DNA of 11,047 bases from positions 1 to 11,047 of the forward strand of contig JAGSPQ010000045.1 in NCBI GenBank assembly GCA_018262385.1. The letters are read 5' to 3'. The DNA is from Myxococcaceae bacterium (lineage in GTDB: Bacteria; Myxococcota; Myxococcia; Myxococcales; Myxococcaceae). A program made the translations under genes and the position numbers. Positions 1 to 11,045 of the stretch are shown piece after piece (positions within the stretch are counted from its first letter, which is position 1; each line of letters starts with the position of its first letter). The notes under the pieces are model-generated. The model had not been told where the DNA came from and ran no database searches. It was given only the letters and a program-made list of their open reading frames with translations.

Positions 1-2
1 TC

Positions 3-797
3 GGGGTCGGCCTCGAGCTGCTCCACACCTTCATGCTGGTCCATGACGACGTCGCCGATCGCGCCAACGTCCGCCGGGGCGGGCCGTCGCTGCATCACCT
101 GCTGGGCGAAGGCCGGCTGGGCGAGGATCTGGCGGTGGTCGCCGGAGATCACCTCTACGCCCGCGCGATGGAGGCGATGATCGGCGCGCCGTCTGCGCAC
201 GCGGTGGCCGCCAGCCGCTTCATGCTCGAGATCTGCCGCCACACCGCCGCCGGCCAGCACCTCGACCTGTCGCTCTCGCGCGCGCCGCTGGAGAAGGTCG
301 GCCTGTTCCAGACCTTGAAGGTCGCCCACCTGAAGACCGCGCGGTACGGCTTCGTCGCCCCGCTGGTCTGCGGCGGGATGCTCGGCGGCGCCTCGCCCGA
401 GCTGATCGACGGGCTGGGCCGGGTCGGCCGGCTGGCGGGCCTGGCCTACCAGCTGCGCGACGATCTGATCGGCCTGTACGGCGAAGACAAGGTCACCGGC
501 AAAGACGGCGGCGGCGACTTCTTCGAAGGCAAGCGCACCTTCCCGGTGGTGGCGGCCTGGACCCGCGCCGACGCGGGCGGCCGGCGCACCCTCGAGGCGC
601 TGTGGAACACCCGCACCAGCAAGCAGCTGGCGACCGCCCGGCTGGAGGTCGCTCGCTGGGGTGGGGTGGCCGCCTCGCAGCGGGTGGTCGATCGGCTGAC
701 CAAGGCCGCCCGCCGCTCGCTCGCCTCGTTCGGGCGGTGTGTCGCGGTCGAGTTCCTCGACGAGATGCTCACCGGGCTGGCGAAGAGAGTCGCGTGA
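3..797 (+). CDS. crtE: Geranylgeranyl diphosphate synthase, 5'-truncated by the window edge
   Basis: This is a trans-isoprenyl diphosphate synthase, which condenses isopentenyl diphosphate with allylic diphosphates in the cytoplasm to give C20 GGPP, the precursor for CrtB. The reading frame is open to base 3, so the gene starts upstream and about 70-90 N-terminal residues are missing compared with the usual 300-360. Numbering from the first visible codon, the first aspartate-rich motif DDVAD is at residues 15-19, followed by RRGGP. The second motif reads DDLIG at 153-157, so its last aspartate is replaced by glycine, followed by the GK(D)GGGD and EGKRT segments. From memory, that DDxxG form is common in actinobacterial-type GGPP synthases and does not imply loss of function. 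The ATG at 33 lies within the conserved HTFMLVHDD segment and is not the true start. The stop is 13 bases before the desaturase start, so the two are cotranscribed. Chain length (C20) is inferred from the operon context. Confidence 0.93.
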   Translation, partial: GVGLELLHTFMLVHDDVADRANVRRGGPSLHHLLGEGRLGEDLAVVAGDHLYARAMEAMIGAPSAHAVAASRFMLEICRHTAAGQHLDLSLSRAPLEKVGLFQTLKVAHLKTARYGFVAPLVCGGMLGGASPELIDGLGRVGRLAGLAYQLRDDLIGLYGEDKVTGKDGGGDFFEGKRTFPVVAAWTRADAGGRRTLEALWNTRTSKQLATARLEVARWGGVAASQRVVDRLTKAARRSLASFGRCVAVEFLDEMLTGLAKRVA

Positions 798-810
798 GCC
801 TCCAGGCGCG

Positions 811-2316
811 ATGAGCACCGCGATCGTCATCGGCGCGGGAGTCGGAGGCCTGACCGCGGCGATGAAGCTCGCCCACGCCGGGGTGAAGGTCGAGCTGTAC
901 GAGAAGTCGCCCGTTCCCGGGGGCCGCTGCGGCCGGGTCGAGGTCGGCGAGTTCCGCTTCGATCTGGGCCCGACGATCCTGTTGATGCCGTTCGTGCTCC
1001 AGCAAGCCTTCGCCTCGATCGGCCGCAAGCTCGAGGATCACCTCGAGCTCCAGCGCTGCGATCCGCACTACCGGGTTCACTTCCGCGACGGCTCGCGCGT
1101 CGTCCTCTGGACGGACCCTGCGAAGATGAAGGCCGAGCTCGAGCAGATCGAGCCGGGCAGCTACCCGCGGTACCAGCAGTTCCTCGCGCGCGGGAAGATC
1201 CAGAACGACGCCGCGTTCGAGCACTTCATCACCCGCCACTTCTCGTCGGTGCTCGAGTTCGTCACTCCCAAGAGCGTCCCCCAGATGGTCCGGGTCGGCG
1301 CGCTGAGCAAGCTGTGGAGCCACGTCTCGAAGTACTTCGCCGACGATCGGCTGCGCCAGGCGCTCAGCTTCCAGACGATGTACCTCGGCGTCTCGCCCTA
1401 CGACGCCCCGGCGGTCTTCGCGCTGCTGCCCTACACCGAGGCCGTTCACGGGATCTGGTTCCCCAGGGGAGGAATGCACGCGGTGCCGCTCGCGCTGGCC
1501 GAGGTCCGCCGGTTGGAGGGCGTCGCGCTCCACCTGGGCCAGGGGGTGAAGCAGGTGCAGGTCGAGAACGGCAAGGCGGTCGGGGTCGAGCTCGAAGACG
1601 GCCAGGTGCGCCGCGCCGACGTGGTGCTCTGCAACGCCGACTACGCCTGGGCGGTGAAGCACCTGCTGCCCCCGGCGCTGGCCGCGCCCCGCAGCGCGAA
1701 GCTGAGCAAGGCGCGGTTCACCTCGTCGGGGCTGATGCTCTACCTGGGCCTGAGTCAGCGGGTCGAAGGGCTGCTGCACCACAACGTCTTCTTCGGCCGC
1801 GACTTCAAGGGCAGCTTCAACGACATCTTCGAGAAGGGGCGGGTGCCGGACGACCTGAGCTTCTACGTCAACGCGCCCAGCCGCACCGCCGAAGGGTTTG
1901 CCCCGGAAGGGAAGGACGCACTGCAGGTGCTGGTGCCGGTTCCTCCGCTGGGGGGCCCGGTCGACTGGAAGGCCGAAGCGGGCCGGGTGCGCGCCGGAGT
2001 CCTCGCGCGGCTCAAGGACGAAGGCTACGGCGACCTGGAGCCGCTGATCGAAGCCGAGCAGGTGCTGACCCCCGACGACTGGCAGACCCACCACCGCCTC
2101 GAGCGCGGCTCGAACTTCGGTCTCGCCCAGAACTTCCTGCAGCTGGGCCCGTTCCGCCCGAAGGTGTCCGACCCGGATCTGAAGAACCTCTTCTGGTGCG
2201 GCGCTTCGGTGCAGCCCGGCACCGGGGTGCCGACGGTGATGATCAGCGCCGGCTTCGCGGTCGACGCGGTGCTCGCGCAGCTGGGAATGGCTCGGCCCCG
2301 GGAGCGTGTCGCATGA
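811..2316 (+). CDS. crtIa: CrtI-type phytoene desaturase (CrtIa position)
   Basis: This is a 501-residue FAD-dependent carotenoid desaturase that removes hydrogens from phytoene. The N-terminal dinucleotide-binding motif GAGVGGL is at residues 8-14, the acidic ribose-binding E31 ends the second strand, and PGGR at 36-39 is the usual CrtI follow-up. The C-terminal FAD/substrate signature CGASVQPGTGVPTVMIS spans about 463-479. ATG 811 is chosen because it puts the Rossmann strand at the N terminus; the in-frame ATG at 739 would add 24 Arg/Ser-rich residues inside crtE. The upstream ribosome-binding site is weak, so coupling to crtE is likely. The order crtE-this gene-crtB matches M. xanthus, where CrtIa acts on cis-phytoene, isomerises it and stops at zeta-carotene. 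The a/b assignment rests on gene order, not on alignment. A full four-step desaturase is the alternative. Confidence 0.9.
   Translation: MSTAIVIGAGVGGLTAAMKLAHAGVKVELYEKSPVPGGRCGRVEVGEFRFDLGPTILLMPFVLQQAFASIGRKLEDHLELQRCDPHYRVHFRDGSRVVLWTDPAKMKAELEQIEPGSYPRYQQFLARGKIQNDAAFEHFITRHFSSVLEFVTPKSVPQMVRVGALSKLWSHVSKYFADDRLRQALSFQTMYLGVSPYDAPAVFALLPYTEAVHGIWFPRGGMHAVPLALAEVRRLEGVALHLGQGVKQVQVENGKAVGVELEDGQVRRADVVLCNADYAWAVKHLLPPALAAPRSAKLSKARFTSSGLMLYLGLSQRVEGLLHHNVFFGRDFKGSFNDIFEKGRVPDDLSFYVNAPSRTAEGFAPEGKDALQVLVPVPPLGGPVDWKAEAGRVRAGVLARLKDEGYGDLEPLIEAEQVLTPDDWQTHHRLERGSNFGLAQNFLQLGPFRPKVSDPDLKNLFWCGASVQPGTGVPTVMISAGFAVDAVLAQLGMARPRERVA
2301..2304 (+). promoter_or_regulatory. Ribosome binding site of crtB
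   Basis: GGAG lies eight bases before the crtB ATG and inside the last codons of the upstream desaturase. It supports the ATG at 2313, whose TGA-overlapping position indicates translational coupling. Confidence 0.6.
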
Positions 2317-3200
2317 GCCCGATCGTCCTCGCCGGGTACGCCTCGGCGCGCGAAGTCACCCGGCACCACGCGAAGAGCTTCTATTTCTCGTCGGTGGCGC
2401 TGTTCGGCGCCCGCCGCCGGGGCGCGTTCGCGATCTACGCCTTCTGCCGCCGGCTCGACGATCTGGTCGACCAGTCGCAGACCGACCCGAAGGCGCTGCC
2501 CGGCCTGCTCGAGGAGGCCCGCGGGCTGCTCTACTCGCTCTTCGTCCGCGGCACGGTGAAGGCGGTCCAGCCGTGGCCCGAGCACGAACTGGTCGCGTTC
2601 CTCGACGCCGCCGAGCGGTTCGGCCTGGTGCAGCAGCCCTTCCTCGACCTGGTCGCGGGGATGGAGATGGATCTGACCCAGAAGCGCTACGCCAGCTGGG
2701 CCGAGCTCGATCTGTATTGCTACCGGGTCGCCGGCACCGTCGGCCTGATGATGGCGCCCCTGCTGGGCACCACCGATCCGGTCGCGCTGGTCCACGCCGC
2801 GGATCTGGGCCGCGCGATGCAACTGACCAACATCCTGCGCGACGTGAAGGAAGATCTCGGCCTCGGCCGCGTCTACCTGCCGCAGGACGAGCTGAAGGCG
2901 CACGGCCTGTCGGAAGCGGATCTGAAGGCCGGGGTGGTCGACCCGCGGGTGCGCAGCTTCCTCGCGATGCAGATCGGGCGGGCGCGCACCCTCTACGCCT
3001 CGGCCCTCAAGGGAGTGCCCTACCTGCGCGGCTTCGGCTCGAAGCGGGTGGTGCGGCTGATGTCGTCGATCTACGGCGGGATCCTCGACGTGATCGAAGA
3101 GCGCGACTTCGACATCTTCTCTTCGCGCGTCTCTCTGCCGACGAGGCGGAAGTTGTGGCGCCTGGCTGCGGTGCTCGCACTTCCGAATCCACGGCGGTGA
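2313..3200 (+). CDS. crtB: Phytoene synthase
   Basis: CrtB condenses two GGPP molecules head-to-head to 15-cis-phytoene, the first committed carotenoid step, at the membrane surface. The product is 295 residues, the usual size for the bacterial squalene/phytoene synthase family. Both metal-binding aspartate motifs are intact: DDLVD at residues 49-53, after the family-typical FAIYAFCRR, and DVKED at 177-181, within the NILRD...GRVYLP signature. YCYRVAGTVG at 135-144 is also typical. The start ATG overlaps the preceding stop as ATGA, and a GGAG sits eight bases upstream. Its own stop overlaps the next start as GTGA. Unlike some squalene synthases it has no C-terminal membrane anchor. Between crtE and the desaturases, phytoene synthesis is by far the best assignment over squalene synthesis. 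Confidence 0.97.
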   Translation: MSPIVLAGYASAREVTRHHAKSFYFSSVALFGARRRGAFAIYAFCRRLDDLVDQSQTDPKALPGLLEEARGLLYSLFVRGTVKAVQPWPEHELVAFLDAAERFGLVQQPFLDLVAGMEMDLTQKRYASWAELDLYCYRVAGTVGLMMAPLLGTTDPVALVHAADLGRAMQLTNILRDVKEDLGLGRVYLPQDELKAHGLSEADLKAGVVDPRVRSFLAMQIGRARTLYASALKGVPYLRGFGSKRVVRLMSSIYGGILDVIEERDFDIFSSRVSLPTRRKLWRLAAVLALPNPRR

Positions 3201-4069
3201 ACGAGCCCACCTTTCGCATCCAGATGGCCGCCGAGGTCTCGGGCGTGAAAGAGGGCCTGATCCGCGCCTGGGAACGGCGCTACGGCGTGCTCAAGCCGGC
3301 CCGCTCCCCCGGGGGCTACCGGACGTACACCCAGGCGGACATCGAAGTGCTCAAGCGGCTCAAGCGCCTGACCGAAGAGGGGGTGGCGATCGCCGAGGCG
3401 GTGAAGCTGCTGCCCACGATTCGCCGCGAGGCGCGCGAAGTCGAAGAGCCGGCCGGGCCCCGGCAGAAGCTCCCGCGCGAGCAGCAGCTGAAGGCCTGGC
3501 GCGACGAGCTCTTCGCCGCCGGCGCCCGGCTGGATCAGCAGCAGGTCGAGGCGGTGCTCGACGCCGCGGTCGAGTGGCTGCCGCCGCTGGGGTTCTTCGA
3601 CGCGCTGGTCGCGCCGGTGCTCCGCGAGGTCGGCGAGCGCTGGCACTCCGGCACCTTGAGCGTCGCCGAGGAGCACCTGATCAGCGAGGCCGTCCGCCAG
3701 CGGCTGATCTCGTTGCTGGCCCACGCTCCCCGGCGCGCGAAGCACCACGTCGTCTGCGCCTGCCTGGCCGACGAGCAGCACGAGCTGGGGCTGATGGGCG
3801 CCGCGCTGCGCTTTCGCCACCAGGGCTACCGGGTGACCTTCCTCGGCGCGCGGACGCCGATCGAGCAACTGGCGCGGCTGGTGAAGGCAGTGCGGCCCGA
3901 TCTGGTCGCGGTCTCGGTGGTCGTCGATCAGGCGGCCGAAGAGCGGCTCACCGCGCTGGCGGCCGCGCTGCCCGAGGGGACGAAGGTACTGGTCGGCGGC
4001 CACGGAGCCGAGCCGCACCGCCGCCTGATCAAGCGATTGGGCTTCGCGCTGGAAGGAGAGCAGCCATGA
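3197..4069 (+). CDS. carH: CarH-type MerR-family, adenosylcobalamin-binding light-sensing repressor
   Basis: This is a 290-residue regulator with a MerR-like winged helix (about 5-72, with AWERRYGVLKPAR and GGYRTY), a four-helix light-sensing segment (about 95-175) and a B12-binding Rossmann domain (about 183-288). The cobalamin motif E193-Q-H195-E-L-G198, S240-V-V and G267-G268 are present. The CarH photochemical set is complete: W149 and E159-H160 form W-x9-EH, and H150 directly after the Trp matches Thermus CarH His132, which ligates cobalt after illumination. H195 corresponds to the dark-state ligand His177. In the known system the AdoCbl tetramer represses in the dark and light cleaves Co-C and breaks up the tetramer. 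The start is GTG 3197, overlapping the crtB stop; upstream residues are out of family. It is transcribed with its presumed targets, which implies autoregulation. CarA, its B12-independent paralogue, is the alternative, but the intact motif set favours CarH. No operator was recognised in the window. Confidence 0.93.
   Translation: MNEPTFRIQMAAEVSGVKEGLIRAWERRYGVLKPARSPGGYRTYTQADIEVLKRLKRLTEEGVAIAEAVKLLPTIRREAREVEEPAGPRQKLPREQQLKAWRDELFAAGARLDQQQVEAVLDAAVEWLPPLGFFDALVAPVLREVGERWHSGTLSVAEEHLISEAVRQRLISLLAHAPRRAKHHVVCACLADEQHELGLMGAALRFRHQGYRVTFLGARTPIEQLARLVKAVRPDLVAVSVVVDQAAEERLTALAAALPEGTKVLVGGHGAEPHRRLIKRLGFALEGEQP
4053..4058 (+). promoter_or_regulatory. Ribosome binding site of the second desaturase
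   Basis: AAGGAG lies seven bases before the ATG at 4066, within the last codons of the carH-like gene. It is the strongest Shine-Dalgarno in the operon and fixes the start that overlaps the regulator's stop as ATGA. Confidence 0.75.
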
Positions 4070-5631
4070 AGGCGTTGATCGTCGGGGCAGGCCCGGGAGG
4101 ACTCGCCGCGGCGATCAACCTCGCCGGCCTCGGGTTCCAGGTCACCGTGGTCGAGAAGGAAGCGATCCCCGGCGGGCGGATGCGCGGCCTGCGCCTGGGC
4201 GAGTACGAGCTCGACACCGGGCCGACGATCCTCCAGCTGCCCCAGGTGCTCGACGCGGTGTTCCGCCGCGCCGGCAAGCGGCTGCAGGACTACGTGACCC
4301 TGAAGGCGCTCGATCCGAACACCCGCATCCACTTCTGGGATCGCAGCTGGCTCGACACCTCGTCGAATCCGGAAAAGATGCGCCAGTCGCTCGCCCGCCT
4401 CGACCCGAAGCACCCGGCGGCGTTCGATCGCTGGATGGCGCAGGGCCGCGACAAGTACGCGATCACCTACGAGAAGTTCATCTGCACTCCCGCCGACTCG
4501 CTCGCCTACTACGCGCCGTGGCGGCTGCTCGACACCCTGCGGTTCAAGCCCTGGCAGACGCTCTACGGCCACCTCGACGAGTTCTTCGACGACGACCGGG
4601 TCACCTTCGCGCTCAGCTACCCCTCGAAGTACCTCGGGCTCCACCCCACCACCTGCTCGAGCGTCTTCAGCGTGGTGCCGTACCTCGAGCTGCAGTTCGG
4701 CGTCTGGCACGTGATGGGCGGCTTCCGCGCGCTCTCGAAGGGAATGCAGCGCTGCGCCGAAGACCTCGGCGCCGTCTTCCGCTTCAGCGCGCCGGTGGCC
4801 GAGGTCCTGGTCGAGGGGGGCCGGGCGAAGGGGGTGGTGCTCGAGAGCGGAGAGCGGCTCGAGGCCGACACGGTGGTGATCAACGCCGATCTGCCCTACG
4901 CGGCGACGAAGCTGCTGGCCCCGAAGGTGCGGGAAGGGACCCGGCTGTCGAACCAGCGGCTCGAGCGCGCCCGCTACAGCTGCAGCACCTTCATGCTCTA
5001 CCTCGGGCTCGACACCCGCTTCGATCAGCTGCCGCATCACCTGATCTACCTGTCGCAGAACGCCCGCCGCACCGACGCCGCCGCGCTCGGCGACTACGAG
5101 GCCGATCTCGACGATCCGCCGTTCTACGTCTGCAACCCGACCCCGACCGATCCGGCCGGATCGCCCGCGGGCCACTCGACGATGTACGTGCTGATTCCGA
5201 CGCCCAACACCTCGCGCCCGGTCGACTGGCCGGCGCTCGAGCGGCAGCTGATCGCCAAGGTGCCGCAGTGGCTCGAGAAGGTGGGGATTCACGGCATCGG
5301 CAAGCACATCCGCCAACAGCGCGCCTTCACCGCCGAGACCTGGCGCGACGAGTTCAACGTCTTCCGCGGAGCGGTCTTCAACCTCTCGCACAACTGGATG
5401 CAGCTGGGGCCGCTGCGGCCGAAGGTGAAGTCGCCCGACGTCGAGGGGCTGTACTGGGTCGGCGGCGGCACCCACCCCGGCAGCGGGCTGCTCACCATCC
5501 TCGAGAGCGCCAACATCGCGGCCGACTACCTCGCGCGCGCGATCGGAAAGCCGCGGCTGCCCCAGTGGCCGTTCGTCCCGCCGGTCGAAGCCGCTACAGG
5601 TTCGGCAGCAGCAGCTTCAACTTCTCTTTGA
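4066..5631 (+). CDS. crtIb: Second CrtI-type carotene desaturase (CrtIb-like)
   Basis: This is a 521-residue FAD-dependent carotenoid desaturase. The dinucleotide-binding motif GAGPGGL is at residues 7-13, E30 ends the second strand, and PGGR is at 35-38. The C-terminal signature GGGTHPGSGLLTILES spans about 466-481. It is clearly a paralogue of the first desaturase (shared LDTGPTILQ/FDLGPTILL, WMQLGPLRPKV/FLQLGPFRPKV) but diverged, with a different C-terminal signature. In M. xanthus a separate enzyme, CrtIb (formerly CarC), continues from trans intermediates to lycopene because CrtIa cannot finish; this gene is a good candidate for that role. A CrtD-like hydroxyneurosporene desaturase is the main alternative. 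It starts at ATG 4066, overlapping the carH stop, with a strong AAGGAG. The last 13 codons encode an Ala/Ser/Thr-rich tail that overlaps the converging mtnP gene. Confidence 0.87.
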   Translation: MKALIVGAGPGGLAAAINLAGLGFQVTVVEKEAIPGGRMRGLRLGEYELDTGPTILQLPQVLDAVFRRAGKRLQDYVTLKALDPNTRIHFWDRSWLDTSSNPEKMRQSLARLDPKHPAAFDRWMAQGRDKYAITYEKFICTPADSLAYYAPWRLLDTLRFKPWQTLYGHLDEFFDDDRVTFALSYPSKYLGLHPTTCSSVFSVVPYLELQFGVWHVMGGFRALSKGMQRCAEDLGAVFRFSAPVAEVLVEGGRAKGVVLESGERLEADTVVINADLPYAATKLLAPKVREGTRLSNQRLERARYSCSTFMLYLGLDTRFDQLPHHLIYLSQNARRTDAAALGDYEADLDDPPFYVCNPTPTDPAGSPAGHSTMYVLIPTPNTSRPVDWPALERQLIAKVPQWLEKVGIHGIGKHIRQQRAFTAETWRDEFNVFRGAVFNLSHNWMQLGPLRPKVKSPDVEGLYWVGGGTHPGSGLLTILESANIAADYLARAIGKPRLPQWPFVPPVEAATGSAAAASTSL

Positions 5632-7660: not shown

Positions 7661-9721
7661 GTGCACGGATTCGAGTTGTTGCGGAAGGTAGCCGATGGTT
7701 CCGCCGCTGAGGCGTTTCTCGCGCGCGCCCCGGGCGCCAAACACTCGGTGCTGGTGGAAGTCAGCCGGGCGGAAGTCGTCAAGGACATGGAGCTGTACGG
7801 CCGGTTCCTCGATCGCGCGATGGGCCGCCGGCAGTTTCAGCACCCCCACCTGGTGCAGCGTCACACCGCCGGCTGTGGCCCCGATGGCCGGGTCTACGTC
7901 GCCACCGAGGCGATCGCCGGGCCGACGATCGCCGACCGCCTCGCCTCGGCCGGCGCCTACGATCCGCACGAAGCGGTGCGGCTGCTGATCCCGATCTGCG
8001 CCGCGCTCGAGTACCTCCACTGCCGCACCGTGGTGCACGGCAACCTCTGCCCGAAGAACATCTACCTCACCGGCTCGCCGACCCAGCCGGTTCCGAAGCT
8101 GCTCGAGATGGGGCTGCTGCTGTTCCGCACCAACATGTCGTTCAAGGTGCCCTCGAAGCTGGTGGCCGAGCCGTACCTCTCGCCCGAGCGCGTCGCCGGT
8201 CATCGGGCCGACGTGCGCAGCGACGTCTACGGCCTGGGCGTGCTGCTGTTCGAGCTGCTCACCGGCCGCCCGCCGTACGCGATCCGCTCGCTCCACCAGA
8301 CGGCGCCGGTGCCGGTGCTTCCGCCCGCGGCTGCTCCGCTGGCCGAGATCGTCGGCCGCTGCCTCGCCAAGGATCCGACCAGCCGCTACCAGTCCGCGCG
8401 CGAAGTGCAGCTCGCCCTCGAGGAACTGCACCTCGAGCGCGACGTGCTGCAGACCCTCGACATCCAGGTCGCGCTCGACGAAGCACCCAACCAGCCGCCG
8501 ATCATCGTCGGCCACACCGTCAACGAGCGCGGGCCCTTCGCCCCCGACGCCAGGAAGGTGATCGTCGGCAGCTACGAAGTGCTGCGGCCGCTGGGAGAGG
8601 GCGGCATGGGCCGGGTGTTCCTCGCCCGCCACCTCAAGCTCGATCGGCTCGTCGCGCTCAAGACGCTCAAGGCGGTCTACGCGTCCGACCCGCTCCACCT
8701 GCAGCGCTTCGTCCAGGAAGCCCGCGCGGTGAACCGGGTCAAGCACCCCCACCTGGTCGAGATCTACGACTTCCTCGAAGAGGGGCCGGGGCGCGTCTGC
8801 TGCGTGATGGAGCCGCTGTTCGGCGAGACGCTCAAAGATCGCGCGAAGAAGGCGCCCCTGCAGATCACCCGGGCGGTGAAGATCGTCCGCCAGGCCTGTG
8901 GCGCGCTGTCCGCGGTGCACCAGGCGGGGGTGATTCACCGGGACCTCAAGCCCGACAACCTGTTCCTCGTCGATCGCGACGGCGAGGCGGACTTCGTCAA
9001 GGTGCTCGACTTCGGCATCGCCCAGGTCCTCGACGACGCCGAGTCGCTGCTCACCACCCGCGCCGGCGAAGTGGTGGGCACGCCGGCGTACATGGCCCCC
9101 GAGCAGACGATGGCGGGGCCGCTCGATGGCCGCGCCGACATCTACGCGCTCGGCACCGTGCTGTACGTGCTGCTGCAGGGCCGCTTCCCTCACGACGCCA
9201 CCCAACCCGAGGAACTGCTCGCCCAGAAGGTGACCCGGAAGCCGCGCCCGGTCGGCGTCGCCTCGGCCTCGGGCGAGACGATTCCTCAGGGGTTGCGCGA
9301 GATCGTCGATCGCTGTTTGCAGCGCAATCCGAAGGCCCGCTTCCAGACGATGGACGAGCTGTCGCGGGCGCTCGAGCTCTACGAGACCGATCCCACCCTG
9401 CTGCCTGCGCCGGCCGCGAAGGGGATTCGTCCGCTGTGGAAGGCCGTTGCCGCCAGCGCCGGCGCGCTCGCCCTCTGCGCGGCCGGGTGGGTGTGGTCGT
9501 TGGAGACCGCGCCGGCCCCCGTCGCCAGCGCGGAGATCACCCGCCCTGCCGCCGCGGTTGCTCCGGTGGTCGCCGAGCCTCCGCCGGCCACGGTGACGCC
9601 CGAGATTTCCCTGCTCGAGATCCACACCACCCAGCCTGAGCCGGCGGCCCGCCCGGTGGCGAAGAAGCCGGCGGCCGAGAAGAAGCCGGTGAAGAAGAAG
9701 CGGCCGGCGCGCGCGAAGTAG
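7661..9721 (+). CDS. Membrane-anchored Ser/Thr protein kinase with tandem pseudokinase-kinase domains
   Basis: This 686-residue protein holds two Hanks-type domains. The first (about 3-268) is degenerate: the beta-3 Lys is replaced by E33, the alpha-C Glu by R52, HRDxxxxN reads HGNLCPKN (126-133) and DFG reads EMG (149-151). Structural positions persist: SPE (174-176), RSDVYGLGVLLFELLTGRPPY and the C-lobe Arg of DPTSRYQ. The second (about 303-585) is complete: GEGGMG (312-317), VALK with K334, E353, HRDLKPDN (426-433), DFG (450-452), GTPAYMAPE (473-481). It should phosphorylate Ser/Thr. A single transmembrane helix (595-614) is followed by a 72-residue Pro/Ala tail ending in Lys-rich repeats, probably outside the membrane. 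GTG 7661 is needed for the first beta strand and has no Shine-Dalgarno. By analogy with JAK JH2-JH1, the first domain is probably regulatory. Ligand and substrates are unknown. Confidence 0.95.
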   Translation: MHGFELLRKVADGSAAEAFLARAPGAKHSVLVEVSRAEVVKDMELYGRFLDRAMGRRQFQHPHLVQRHTAGCGPDGRVYVATEAIAGPTIADRLASAGAYDPHEAVRLLIPICAALEYLHCRTVVHGNLCPKNIYLTGSPTQPVPKLLEMGLLLFRTNMSFKVPSKLVAEPYLSPERVAGHRADVRSDVYGLGVLLFELLTGRPPYAIRSLHQTAPVPVLPPAAAPLAEIVGRCLAKDPTSRYQSAREVQLALEELHLERDVLQTLDIQVALDEAPNQPPIIVGHTVNERGPFAPDARKVIVGSYEVLRPLGEGGMGRVFLARHLKLDRLVALKTLKAVYASDPLHLQRFVQEARAVNRVKHPHLVEIYDFLEEGPGRVCCVMEPLFGETLKDRAKKAPLQITRAVKIVRQACGALSAVHQAGVIHRDLKPDNLFLVDRDGEADFVKVLDFGIAQVLDDAESLLTTRAGEVVGTPAYMAPEQTMAGPLDGRADIYALGTVLYVLLQGRFPHDATQPEELLAQKVTRKPRPVGVASASGETIPQGLREIVDRCLQRNPKARFQTMDELSRALELYETDPTLLPAPAAKGIRPLWKAVAASAGALALCAAGWVWSLETAPAPVASAEITRPAAAVAPVVAEPPPATVTPEISLLEIHTTQPEPAARPVAKKPAAEKKPVKKKRPARAK

Positions 9722-9746: not shown

Positions 9747-10454
9747 ATGGCTGTGTCGGCCCGTCAGGCCCTGCTGGATCACTCGCTCAAGAAGCTCGAG
9801 CCGACGGGGCCGGTGATCCCCTACGCCGAGCCTGGCAGGTCACAGCTGGCCCCCCACCAGCTGAACGTCTTCACCGACCGCACCGCCGCCGATCTGGCCG
9901 CCGAGAAGTTCGGCCGCCCGGCGATGGGGACCTACGTGGCCGGAGTCCCGGGCCCCGAGCTGTTCGGCCATCTGCTCGAGATCCCCGCGCTGGCTCCCGC
10001 ACTGATGCTGCAGGTGAATCCGGGCTCGTCGCTCGAGACGCAGTGGTTCATTCAGAAAGAGGCCTTCGGGCTGTGCGCCGCCTGGGCCAGCGCAATCTCG
10101 CTCGAGCGCGCGATCTCGACCAACCACTCCGGCTGGGCCGAGGCGATGCGCTCCTACCAGGGCTGGCTGGCCGTCCTCGGCAAGGCCGACAACGCGCTGG
10201 TGCGAATGAACGTCCGCGACAAGGGCGAGCAGGCGCTGATCTTCACGGCGCCGGACCTGGCCGATCGCTTCCTCAACGGCCTGCCCAACGCCGGCGGCGC
10301 GGCCTGCAAGACCTCGGCGGTGGCCGGCCAGCACCTGTTCAAGTTCGTGATGAAGAGCGGGGCGAAGGGCTTCATCGTCAACCCCGGCTCGCCGCAGCCG
10401 AAGATGTTCGACGCGTCGGTCTGCCGCCAGATCCTCGGCCTGCCCCCAGGCTGA
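9747..10454 (+). CDS. Hypothetical protein with two SseB-like repeats
   Basis: This is a 235-residue soluble protein without signal peptide or membrane segments. I do not recognise a named gene. Two stretches resemble each other and the SseB N-terminal domain: LNVFTDRTAADL...VAGVPGPELFGHLL...LQVNPGS (39-94) and ALIFTAPDLADRF...AVAGQHLFKFVM...FIVNPGS (163-215). Each has an FT at the end of a strand, a V/A-A-G...LF helix start and a closing NPGS. SseB-domain proteins are widespread and poorly understood. The region between the repeats (about 96-150), rich in Trp and Ala, looks helical. The ATG lies 25 bases after the kinase stop, preceded by a weak GGGG, so cotranscription with the kinase is plausible. 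It could be a substrate or partner of the kinase, which is conjecture. The gene ends six bases from the stop of the converging gene. Confidence 0.75.
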   Translation: MAVSARQALLDHSLKKLEPTGPVIPYAEPGRSQLAPHQLNVFTDRTAADLAAEKFGRPAMGTYVAGVPGPELFGHLLEIPALAPALMLQVNPGSSLETQWFIQKEAFGLCAAWASAISLERAISTNHSGWAEAMRSYQGWLAVLGKADNALVRMNVRDKGEQALIFTAPDLADRFLNGLPNAGGAACKTSAVAGQHLFKFVMKSGAKGFIVNPGSPQPKMFDASVCRQILGLPPG

Positions 10455-10470
10455 CCCGGGTCAGGGCTGG
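10446..10470. terminator. Symmetric inverted repeat between convergent genes, possible bidirectional terminator
   Basis: A perfect 14-base palindrome, CTGACCCGGGTCAG (10451-10464), covers the whole intergenic gap and both stop codons. Flanking CCAG (10446-10449) and CTGG (10467-10470) extend it to a hairpin with a 5-bp inner stem, a CCGG loop and a 4-bp outer stem separated by a small unpaired bulge. It can form on either strand's RNA. There is no U-tract, so intrinsic termination is uncertain and Rho-dependent or purely structural roles are possible. Confidence 0.45.
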
Positions 10471-11045
10471 CAGATCATCATCCCGGTGAGGTTGCCCGGG
10501 CCGGAGAGGGTGTCGCGCCAGACGACCCCGATCAGCTGGCTCGGGCCGCCCGGGTGAGCCAGCTGCACTCCGGCGAAGTAACCGCCGTCGGTGAACAGCG
10601 CCCGGGTCCGCGCCTGCGATCCATTCCCGTACGGGGTGCCGATCACCGCGGTCGAGTTGCGCTCGGTCCACACCACCACCGAGCTGTTGCGCCCGCGGCC
10701 AATCGAGCCGGGGGTGATGTTCTGATCCTGCTGATACTTCAGGCTGGCGGTCGTCCCCGAGAAGAGATCGTTGCGGAACTCGAACCCGCTCGAGGGGGAG
10801 ATGAGGAACAGCGGGAACCCGGGCGAGCTGTGGCTCCAGCCGGCCTGAACCAGGCTGCCGACCTCGACGAACTGGTACCGGCTGCCGAGGCCGACGCTCG
10901 CGGTCCGGGTGCCCTGCAGCTCGGTCACCCAGTTGAAGCTGGTGCCGGCGTCGTTGTCGTAGCCCCTCACCCCGAGCACCTTCCCGGTGGGCGAGAGGCG
11001 GGCCGCGTAGACCTCGTTCAGCTCGTTGTAGCCGCCGTCGGCGAA
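10461..11045 (-). CDS. C-terminal part of a hypothetical, probably secreted beta-repeat protein
   Basis: The frame is open to the window edge, so the N-terminal part lies to the right and about 195 C-terminal residues are visible. The most upstream visible residues include VYAARLSPTGKVLG, which resembles the YAxRVxPxGxVLD repeats of large extracellular myxobacterial proteins. Later there are SSVVVWTERNS and LIGVVWRDTLSG, spaced like beta-propeller strands, and FADGGY and FTDGGY occur near the start and about 130 residues later. The composition is rich in Ser, Gly, Thr, Asn and aromatic residues with few Lys, as expected for an exported protein. No catalytic motif is visible. The GTG at 10979 is not taken as the start because the homologous-looking frame continues beyond it. 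Function is unknown. Confidence 0.75.
   Translation of the reverse strand, partial: FADGGYNELNEVYAARLSPTGKVLGVRGYDNDAGTSFNWVTELQGTRTASVGLGSRYQFVEVGSLVQAGWSHSSPGFPLFLISPSSGFEFRNDLFSGTTASLKYQQDQNITPGSIGRGRNSSVVVWTERNSTAVIGTPYGNGSQARTRALFTDGGYFAGVQLAHPGGPSQLIGVVWRDTLSGPGNLTGMMICQP

Follow-up and report, generated by a model that had tools for sequence, protein, structure and literature searches.

A pseudokinase domain ahead of an intact kinase in one myxobacterial family of tandem proteins

In this study, one gene in an 11,047-nucleotide stretch of DNA from a Myxococcaceae bacterium (the window) was found to encode two kinase domains in tandem, the first of which (D1) has its catalytic residues replaced and the second of which (D2) keeps all of its motifs. 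Considered together with its relatives, D1 is most likely a lineage-specific bacterial pseudokinase that has an intact kinase as partner and a non-catalytic role, either docking or gating, as judged from sequences and models. We put at about even the chance that D1 lost catalysis once, in a protein that was already a tandem, and was retained thereafter as a docking or gating module of the kinase that does no catalysis itself. This reading is built on a single clade with conserved fold and scaffold, in which the Lys and Asp are lost, the D2 motifs are intact, a set of arginines is present and stand-alone forms occur. Since D1 seems to have lost its activity once and then to have been preserved, and since it also exists in stand-alone copies in some relatives, it probably serves for docking or regulation and not as an enzyme.

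The tandem gene and its surroundings

The first-pass annotation of this DNA had read in D1 a Glu and an Arg at the positions of the catalytic Lys/Glu pair, together with HGN for HRD and EMG for DFG, followed in the same polypeptide by an intact kinase, and both observations were confirmed (Table 1). E33, HGN and EMG within a kinase fold make D1 a pseudokinase, which presumably no longer transfers phosphate, while K334, E353, HRD and DFG are all present in the aligned D2. Both domains belong to the protein kinase superfamily (PF00069), with scores above the curated profile cut-off: the whole protein reaches 240.7 bits over two stretches, the best of which is D2 (residues 305-565), and D1 on its own reaches 79.3 bits against a cut-off of 31.7. 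PknB is the closest solved fold for D1 and D2 alike, and neither JAK nor other pseudokinases are among the 50 structural matches listed, which proves nothing by itself. The model of D1 alone has a pLDDT of 92.5 and a pTM of 0.90; the full-length model has a pLDDT of 81.2 and a pTM of 0.50, a value so low that it gives no firm arrangement of D1 relative to D2. The gene product is a Ser/Thr kinase from a family of myxobacterial tandem kinases and, as its predicted helix suggests, is probably anchored in the membrane; among the 82 pseudokinase-first proteins described below, 36 of the 78 tails of at least 19 residues reach a hydrophobicity of at least 1.6, and such an anchor is thus not demonstrably general across the family.

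Table 1. Features of the tandem gene (positions in the window) and of the stand-alone relatives (positions at the locus named); counts are for the 82 pseudokinase-first proteins and, after "vs", for 14 relatives with Lys and HRD in the first domain
Feature	Position	Strand	Remarks
Tandem pseudokinase-kinase gene	7661..9721	+	GTG start, 686 aa
Domain 1 (D1), residues 4-259	7670..8437	+	kinase fold, pseudokinase
E33, beta-3 Lys position	7757..7759	+	Glu 43 / Gln 39 in 82 family proteins
R52, alpha-C Glu position	7814..7816	+	residue varies across family
HGN replacing HRD	8036..8044	+	Gly127 in 82/82
EMG replacing DFG	8105..8113	+	
R156, activation segment	8126..8128	+	82/82 vs 4/14
R177, next residue after SPE	8189..8191	+	80/82 vs 0/14
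R182	8204..8206	+	80/82 vs 4/14
R209	8285..8287	+	73/82 (Lys in 6) vs Leu/Met in 14/14
Linker, residues 260-302 (~43 residues)	8438..8566	+	residues 260-296 pLDDT <50
Domain 2 (D2), residues 303-576	8567..9388	+	Ser/Thr kinase, motifs intact; closest solved fold PknB
Predicted hydrophobic helix 592-614, likely membrane anchor	9434..9502	+	Kyte-Doolittle 1.62
Ala/Pro/Lys-rich tail	9503..9718	+	mostly low model confidence, poor conservation
Stand-alone pseudokinase L131	6550-7323		
Stand-alone pseudokinase L132	6333-7223		
Stand-alone pseudokinase L133	3991-4767		
Stand-alone pseudokinase L135	6438-7286		

At the left of the window, positions 33-5631 hold a carotenoid-type gene set that comprises, from left to right, a polyprenyl synthetase, an amine-oxidase/desaturase type gene, a squalene/phytoene synthase, a MerR and B12-binding regulator and a further amine-oxidase/desaturase type gene, an arrangement which we take to resemble the light-controlled carotenoid regulation of myxobacteria. 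Between this set and the tandem gene lie reverse-strand genes for an S-methylthioadenosine (MTA) phosphorylase, an adenine phosphoribosyltransferase (APRT) and a YcxB-like protein. A long antisense ORF gave no Pfam match, and for the ORFs at 9747-10454 (+) and 10461-11045 (-) neither Pfam nor NCBIfam had a match at E 0.001. Around the genes of 20 relatives, no match at E 1e-5 was obtained for the APRT, MTA phosphorylase and YcxB-like genes, nor for the two desaturase-type genes, part of crtE and the two downstream ORFs.

The family and the history of the first domain

Protein relatives were collected with the D1 sequence and then with a profile of 48 full-length members, the best 120 rows being taken from each search. 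This gave a list of 191 proteins (P0002-P0192), 128 of which were aligned, the 63 lower-ranking ones (P0059-P0121) being omitted; relatives from a scan of named genomes, at no more than 39% identity, were excluded from the analysis. Nine of the 128 were removed before the D1 tree was built, leaving 119: P0010, P0058, P0168, P0173, P0174 and P0185 as fragments or for an incomplete D1, and P0187, P0190 and P0192 for a different degenerate first domain. The latter three carry Arg at both the Lys and the Glu position, with HRD and DFG replaced and an intact kinase following, and perhaps represent an independent loss. Four further tandems (P0051, P0054, P0052 and P0053) have a part-degenerate D1 (HRQ/DIS or HAQ/DFS) in which the Lys/Glu pair is retained.

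The search for bacterial proteins with the same two-domain order, which had been proposed from the single gene, thus produced a family: in 82 of the 119 tandem proteins, among them that of the window, D1 is without its catalytic Lys, and in all 82 the HRD Arg has become Gly and the Asp is lost (HGx). D2 has K, E, HRD and N in 82/82; its DFG motif is unchanged in 80 and reads DLG in 2. First domains with a normal motif set, which had been named as evidence against the pseudokinase-first arrangement, do exist in 14 comparison relatives with Lys and HRD, but these lie outside the pseudokinase clade. Twelve of them have K/E, HRD and DFG, the exceptions being P0165 and P0169 with DLG, the second of which also lacks the alpha-C Glu; the glycine loop is missing in four or five of the 14.

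In a search of the phylum (195 genomes), 21 genomes matched D1 at E <=1e-33, Lys/HRD-bearing paralogues being counted among the matches, and all 21 belong to the myxobacterial family of the window. The window genome (G000) carries a second pseudokinase member (C502, L091) with E33/A52, HGN and DCG; its assembly is 79% complete, so absences from it carry little weight. The same genome has 105 matches to the tandem kinase protein of the window at E <=0.001, which is a very large kinase set.

In the tree of the 119 first domains, from which motif columns were excluded, the 82 pseudokinases form one clade (SH-aLRT 99). The same was found in a tree of 70 chosen rows, rooted on second domains and made with the motif and arginine columns excluded, where 52 pseudokinase rows, four of them stand-alone, form one clade (bootstrap/SH-aLRT 100/99), and in a joint tree of D1 and D2 (121 domain rows), where 34 pseudokinase rows do so with support 100. 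In the joint tree all 48 first domains of the family group together (support 99), as do the second domains (99), members from Lys/HRD tandems included, with one outsider (P0171). Since the second domains also group, the tandem arrangement came before D1 lost its activity, and the separate grouping of the two domains indicates that D1 is not a recent copy of D2. Whether the pseudokinase clade lies inside or beside the 14 Lys/HRD first domains is a matter on which the 70-row tree is weak, with nesting at 93/5, and the joint tree better, with an SH-aLRT of 96. Taken together, these trees indicate that the catalytic residues of D1 were lost once, in an already tandem protein.

Both forms, pseudokinase and Lys/HRD tandem, are found side by side in four genomes (G009, G004, G008 and G021), the Lys/HRD copy of the last (L097) having GLG in place of DFG. 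The six earliest-branching pseudokinases already have Glu at position 33 and HGx for HRD; the alpha-C position is Glu in five of them and Asp in P0158, and DFG is intact in P0152, P0153 and P0158, the others having DYG, AYG or DAG.

An altered enzyme activity of D1, or continued nucleotide binding, such as is seen in SelO or SidJ, would be compatible with the retention of Asn133 in 53/82 and of the DFG Asp in 68/82, and pseudokinases with new chemistry are described in a review (PMC12599244). Residual binding of metal or nucleotide is indeed possible in some relatives, given how often these two residues are kept. Set against this are the joint loss of Lys33 and of the HRD Asp in 82/82, the EMG of the window protein and the glycine loop, whose middle position is Gly in 81/82 but whose first and third positions are Ala and Val/Ala in 74/82, and we regard a D1 with an altered activity or with continued nucleotide binding as very unlikely.

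The proposal that D1 has been retained by selection, with its fold and scaffold kept, was borne out by the comparison of the two domains. Mean pairwise identity over the 82 proteins is 49.2% for D1 and 51.2% for D2, the D1 value being at least that of D2 in 1087 of 3321 pairs; in the eight nearest full-length proteins the values are 79.3% and 83.2%, with D1 at or above D2 in 5 of 28 pairs. D1 is therefore slightly less conserved than D2, and both differ from the linker (19.2%) and the tail (26.7%), which drift. A decaying and functionless relic of a kinase domain would also have lost its catalytic residues, but it would hardly stay nearly as conserved as D2, or see clade-specific residues become fixed, and such an explanation is exceedingly improbable.

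The charge swap at positions 33 and 52

Positions 33 and 52 fall in an ungapped stretch of the alignment with PknB, opposite its beta-3 Lys and alpha-C Glu. It had been suggested that the Lys/Glu pair was reversed in charge so as to keep an ion pair, and that the whole arrangement is like JAK JH2-JH1. Such a cis regulator, in which D1 packs on D2, holds it off or on and has its fold braced by a reversed E33-R52 salt bridge, would agree with the domain order, with the alignment to PknB and with the presence of E33 and R52 together in 9/9 proteins of the nearest group (that of the window, seven other full-length proteins and the fragment P0010). However, 145 of the 255 D1 columns are invariant in the eight nearest full-length proteins, and fixation of the pair within this group is thus weak evidence.

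Across the 82 proteins, position 33 is Glu in 43 and Gln in 39, with no other residue, a pattern for which two changes suffice on the 70-row tree. Position 52 is Glu in 23, Thr in 13, Arg in 11, Val in 10, Gln in 7, Ala in 6, Leu in 3 and His in 3, plus six rarer cases. Only 10 of the 43 Glu33 proteins have Arg52, while 23 have Glu52, and Arg52 requires five changes on the 70-row tree, the sisters of the window's clade having Ser, Thr or Leu. Among pseudokinase loci taken from genomes, which overlap in part with the protein sample, Glu33 with Arg52 was found in 0/15 of one set and 0/11 of another, Arg52 occurring only in L124 and L131 of the second set, both of them Gln33. A swap that preserves the ion pair is not supported by these counts, and the pair is not a feature of the family. 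By the same comparison, Arg52 appears as a late addition within the window's clade; an E33-R52 salt bridge is possible in the window's group, but it cannot, on this tree, have been the founding event of the change in D1.

As for the likeness to JAK, the domain order holds, whereas an obligatory clamp is opposed by the low-confidence linker of ~43 residues, the full-length pTM of 0.50 and the existence of stand-alone first domains. We consider the JAK-like clamp as a whole unlikely. Under the preferred reading, that of a docking or gating module, Glu33 or Gln33 would be the change, common to the whole family, by which the usual nucleotide site is closed, and R52 a late, clade-specific change which may or may not pair with E33.

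Arginines, stand-alone forms and related systems

Clade-specific positions were defined as those with a residue present in at least 85% of the 82 pseudokinase proteins and in at most 30% of the 14 relatives. Eleven positions are fixed in the pseudokinases only, ten of them in D1 (A15, G127, L154, R156, V168, L173, R177, R182, G191 and R209) and one, V471, in D2; conversely, 19 positions are fixed in the 14 relatives only, 15 in D1 and 4 in D2. With so few D2 residues tracking the state of D1, there is little sign of D2 adapting to a docked D1. R156, R177 and R182 occur jointly in 80/82 pseudokinases vs 0/14 Lys/HRD relatives, and together with R209 in 73/82; the two proteins without the full set of three (P0142 and P0151) form the earliest branch of the pseudokinase clade. 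At genome-derived loci the three are found in 15/15 pseudokinases vs 0/5 Lys/HRD tandems, and in 11/11 of the second set.

By the general topology of kinases, R156, R177, R182 and R209 would lie along the activation segment and on the face of the C-lobe that is turned to the substrate. In the mechanism that we propose, this face of D1, lined by the four arginines, would dock an acidic or phosphorylated partner, which may be a substrate or a phosphorylated segment of the kinase, and the docked D1 would either recruit targets to D2 or gate D2 by way of the flexible linker.

D1 also occurs without D2. Genes of 257-296 aa that consist of D1 only, and that have Gln33 and HGC as well as R156, R177 and R182, are found in four genomes (G107, G108, G012 and G017), which also carry the tandem, and they form one clade (100/99) within the Gln33 branch of the 70-row tree. 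No second kinase domain was found beside L131, L132, L133 or L135, the D2 query matching only the D1 stretch itself. L131 has a weak kinase-like match ~4.5 kb away on the opposite strand, and at L135 one match extended ~20 residues beyond a stop codon.

The coexistence of stand-alone and tandem copies in these four genomes would suit a D1 that serves solely as a stabilising or dimerising partner, in cis or, when stand-alone, in trans, with the arginines being structural. PknB and similar bacterial kinases function as dimers, through the back face of the N-lobe; the arginines, by general topology, lie at or after the activation segment and not on that face, and we rate the dimerising partner as unlikely.

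At 12 of 13 Gln33 tandem loci, in four genera, dnaK (Hsp70, PF00012) lies upstream on the same strand (L081, L083, L084, L087, L088, L089, L125-L128, L130 and L129), with gaps of about 90 to 580 bases at eleven loci; the contig of L129 holds just the final 16 residues of dnaK, and the thirteenth locus (L124) is uninformative, having 96 bases upstream to the contig end. No dnaK was found at nine Glu33 pseudokinase and five Lys/HRD loci, some of whose contigs are short upstream. Four of the ORF groups common to the contexts of the relatives were identified, as HSP70 (dnaK), diacylglycerol-kinase-type (at five of the dnaK loci), FHA-cyclase and TPR genes, and with other genes shared around the same loci, the link to dnaK may reflect general gene order and not function. 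The two largest context ORF groups overlap the kinase genes and were taken for putative shadow ORFs. The tandem gene of the window is of the Glu33 type and has no dnaK nearby within the window; the contig that carries dnaK in the window genome stops ~600 bases past that gene. At the edge of the L135 stretch (2-340, minus strand), ~6 kb from the stand-alone pseudokinase, there is a 66% match to dnaK residues 1-111.

A more specific version of docking, in which D1 is a receptor that reads phosphate or acid on a phosphorylated partner through four fixed arginines, both in cis and, as stand-alone forms, in trans, with the Gln33 branch tied to the DnaK chaperone by way of a conserved dnaK-kinase gene pair, is to our mind distinctly unlikely.

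Several known systems bear comparison with the family. Pseudokinases were reportedly surveyed by Kwon and colleagues in 2019. The PknB and PASTA-type kinases (PF00069) differ from the window protein, which has two kinase domains, the first without catalytic residues, and which has no PASTA match in Pfam and scores 374.3 bits against NF033483, below the equivalog cut-off of 450. JAK JH2-JH1, from animals, likewise has a pseudokinase directly ahead of a kinase in one chain, but the window protein has none of the other JAK domains by Pfam and has instead a low-confidence linker and stand-alone relatives. The two probably have separate origins. Plant tandem kinase-pseudokinases such as Yr15/WTK1 are resistance proteins. 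The likeness here is again one of two kinase domains, one of them a pseudokinase, and the difference is that Yr15/WTK1 comes from plants (PMC6170490) whereas the window protein is bacterial.

Closer in host are the bacterial pseudokinase families ActPs1-3, GLW, CP1, DYD and DLHK, which are named in a review with an underlying classification into 42 families (PMC12599244), and which share with D1 a degraded VAIK, HRD and/or DFG. By the review text, the partners of ActPs1 (in actinobacteria), CP1 (in cyanobacteria and proteobacteria) and DLHK (in proteobacteria) are domains other than kinases (PMC12599244), while the partner in the window's family is an intact kinase, and the phylum matches of the window type (21/195 genomes) are all in one myxobacterial family. 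The main text of the review contains no word starting with "tandem" or "Myxococc". Titles and opening abstract text, with most subscription papers outside their scope, describe no myxobacterial pseudokinase-kinase tandem.

The family thus offers a natural series from kinase to pseudokinase, which runs from tandems with Lys and HRD, through early losses in which an acid is still present at the alpha-C position and DFG is still there in some, to full pseudokinases and stand-alone forms, all within one bacterial family and at times within one genome. Such a series makes the role of a dead kinase for its living neighbour testable outside animals and plants.
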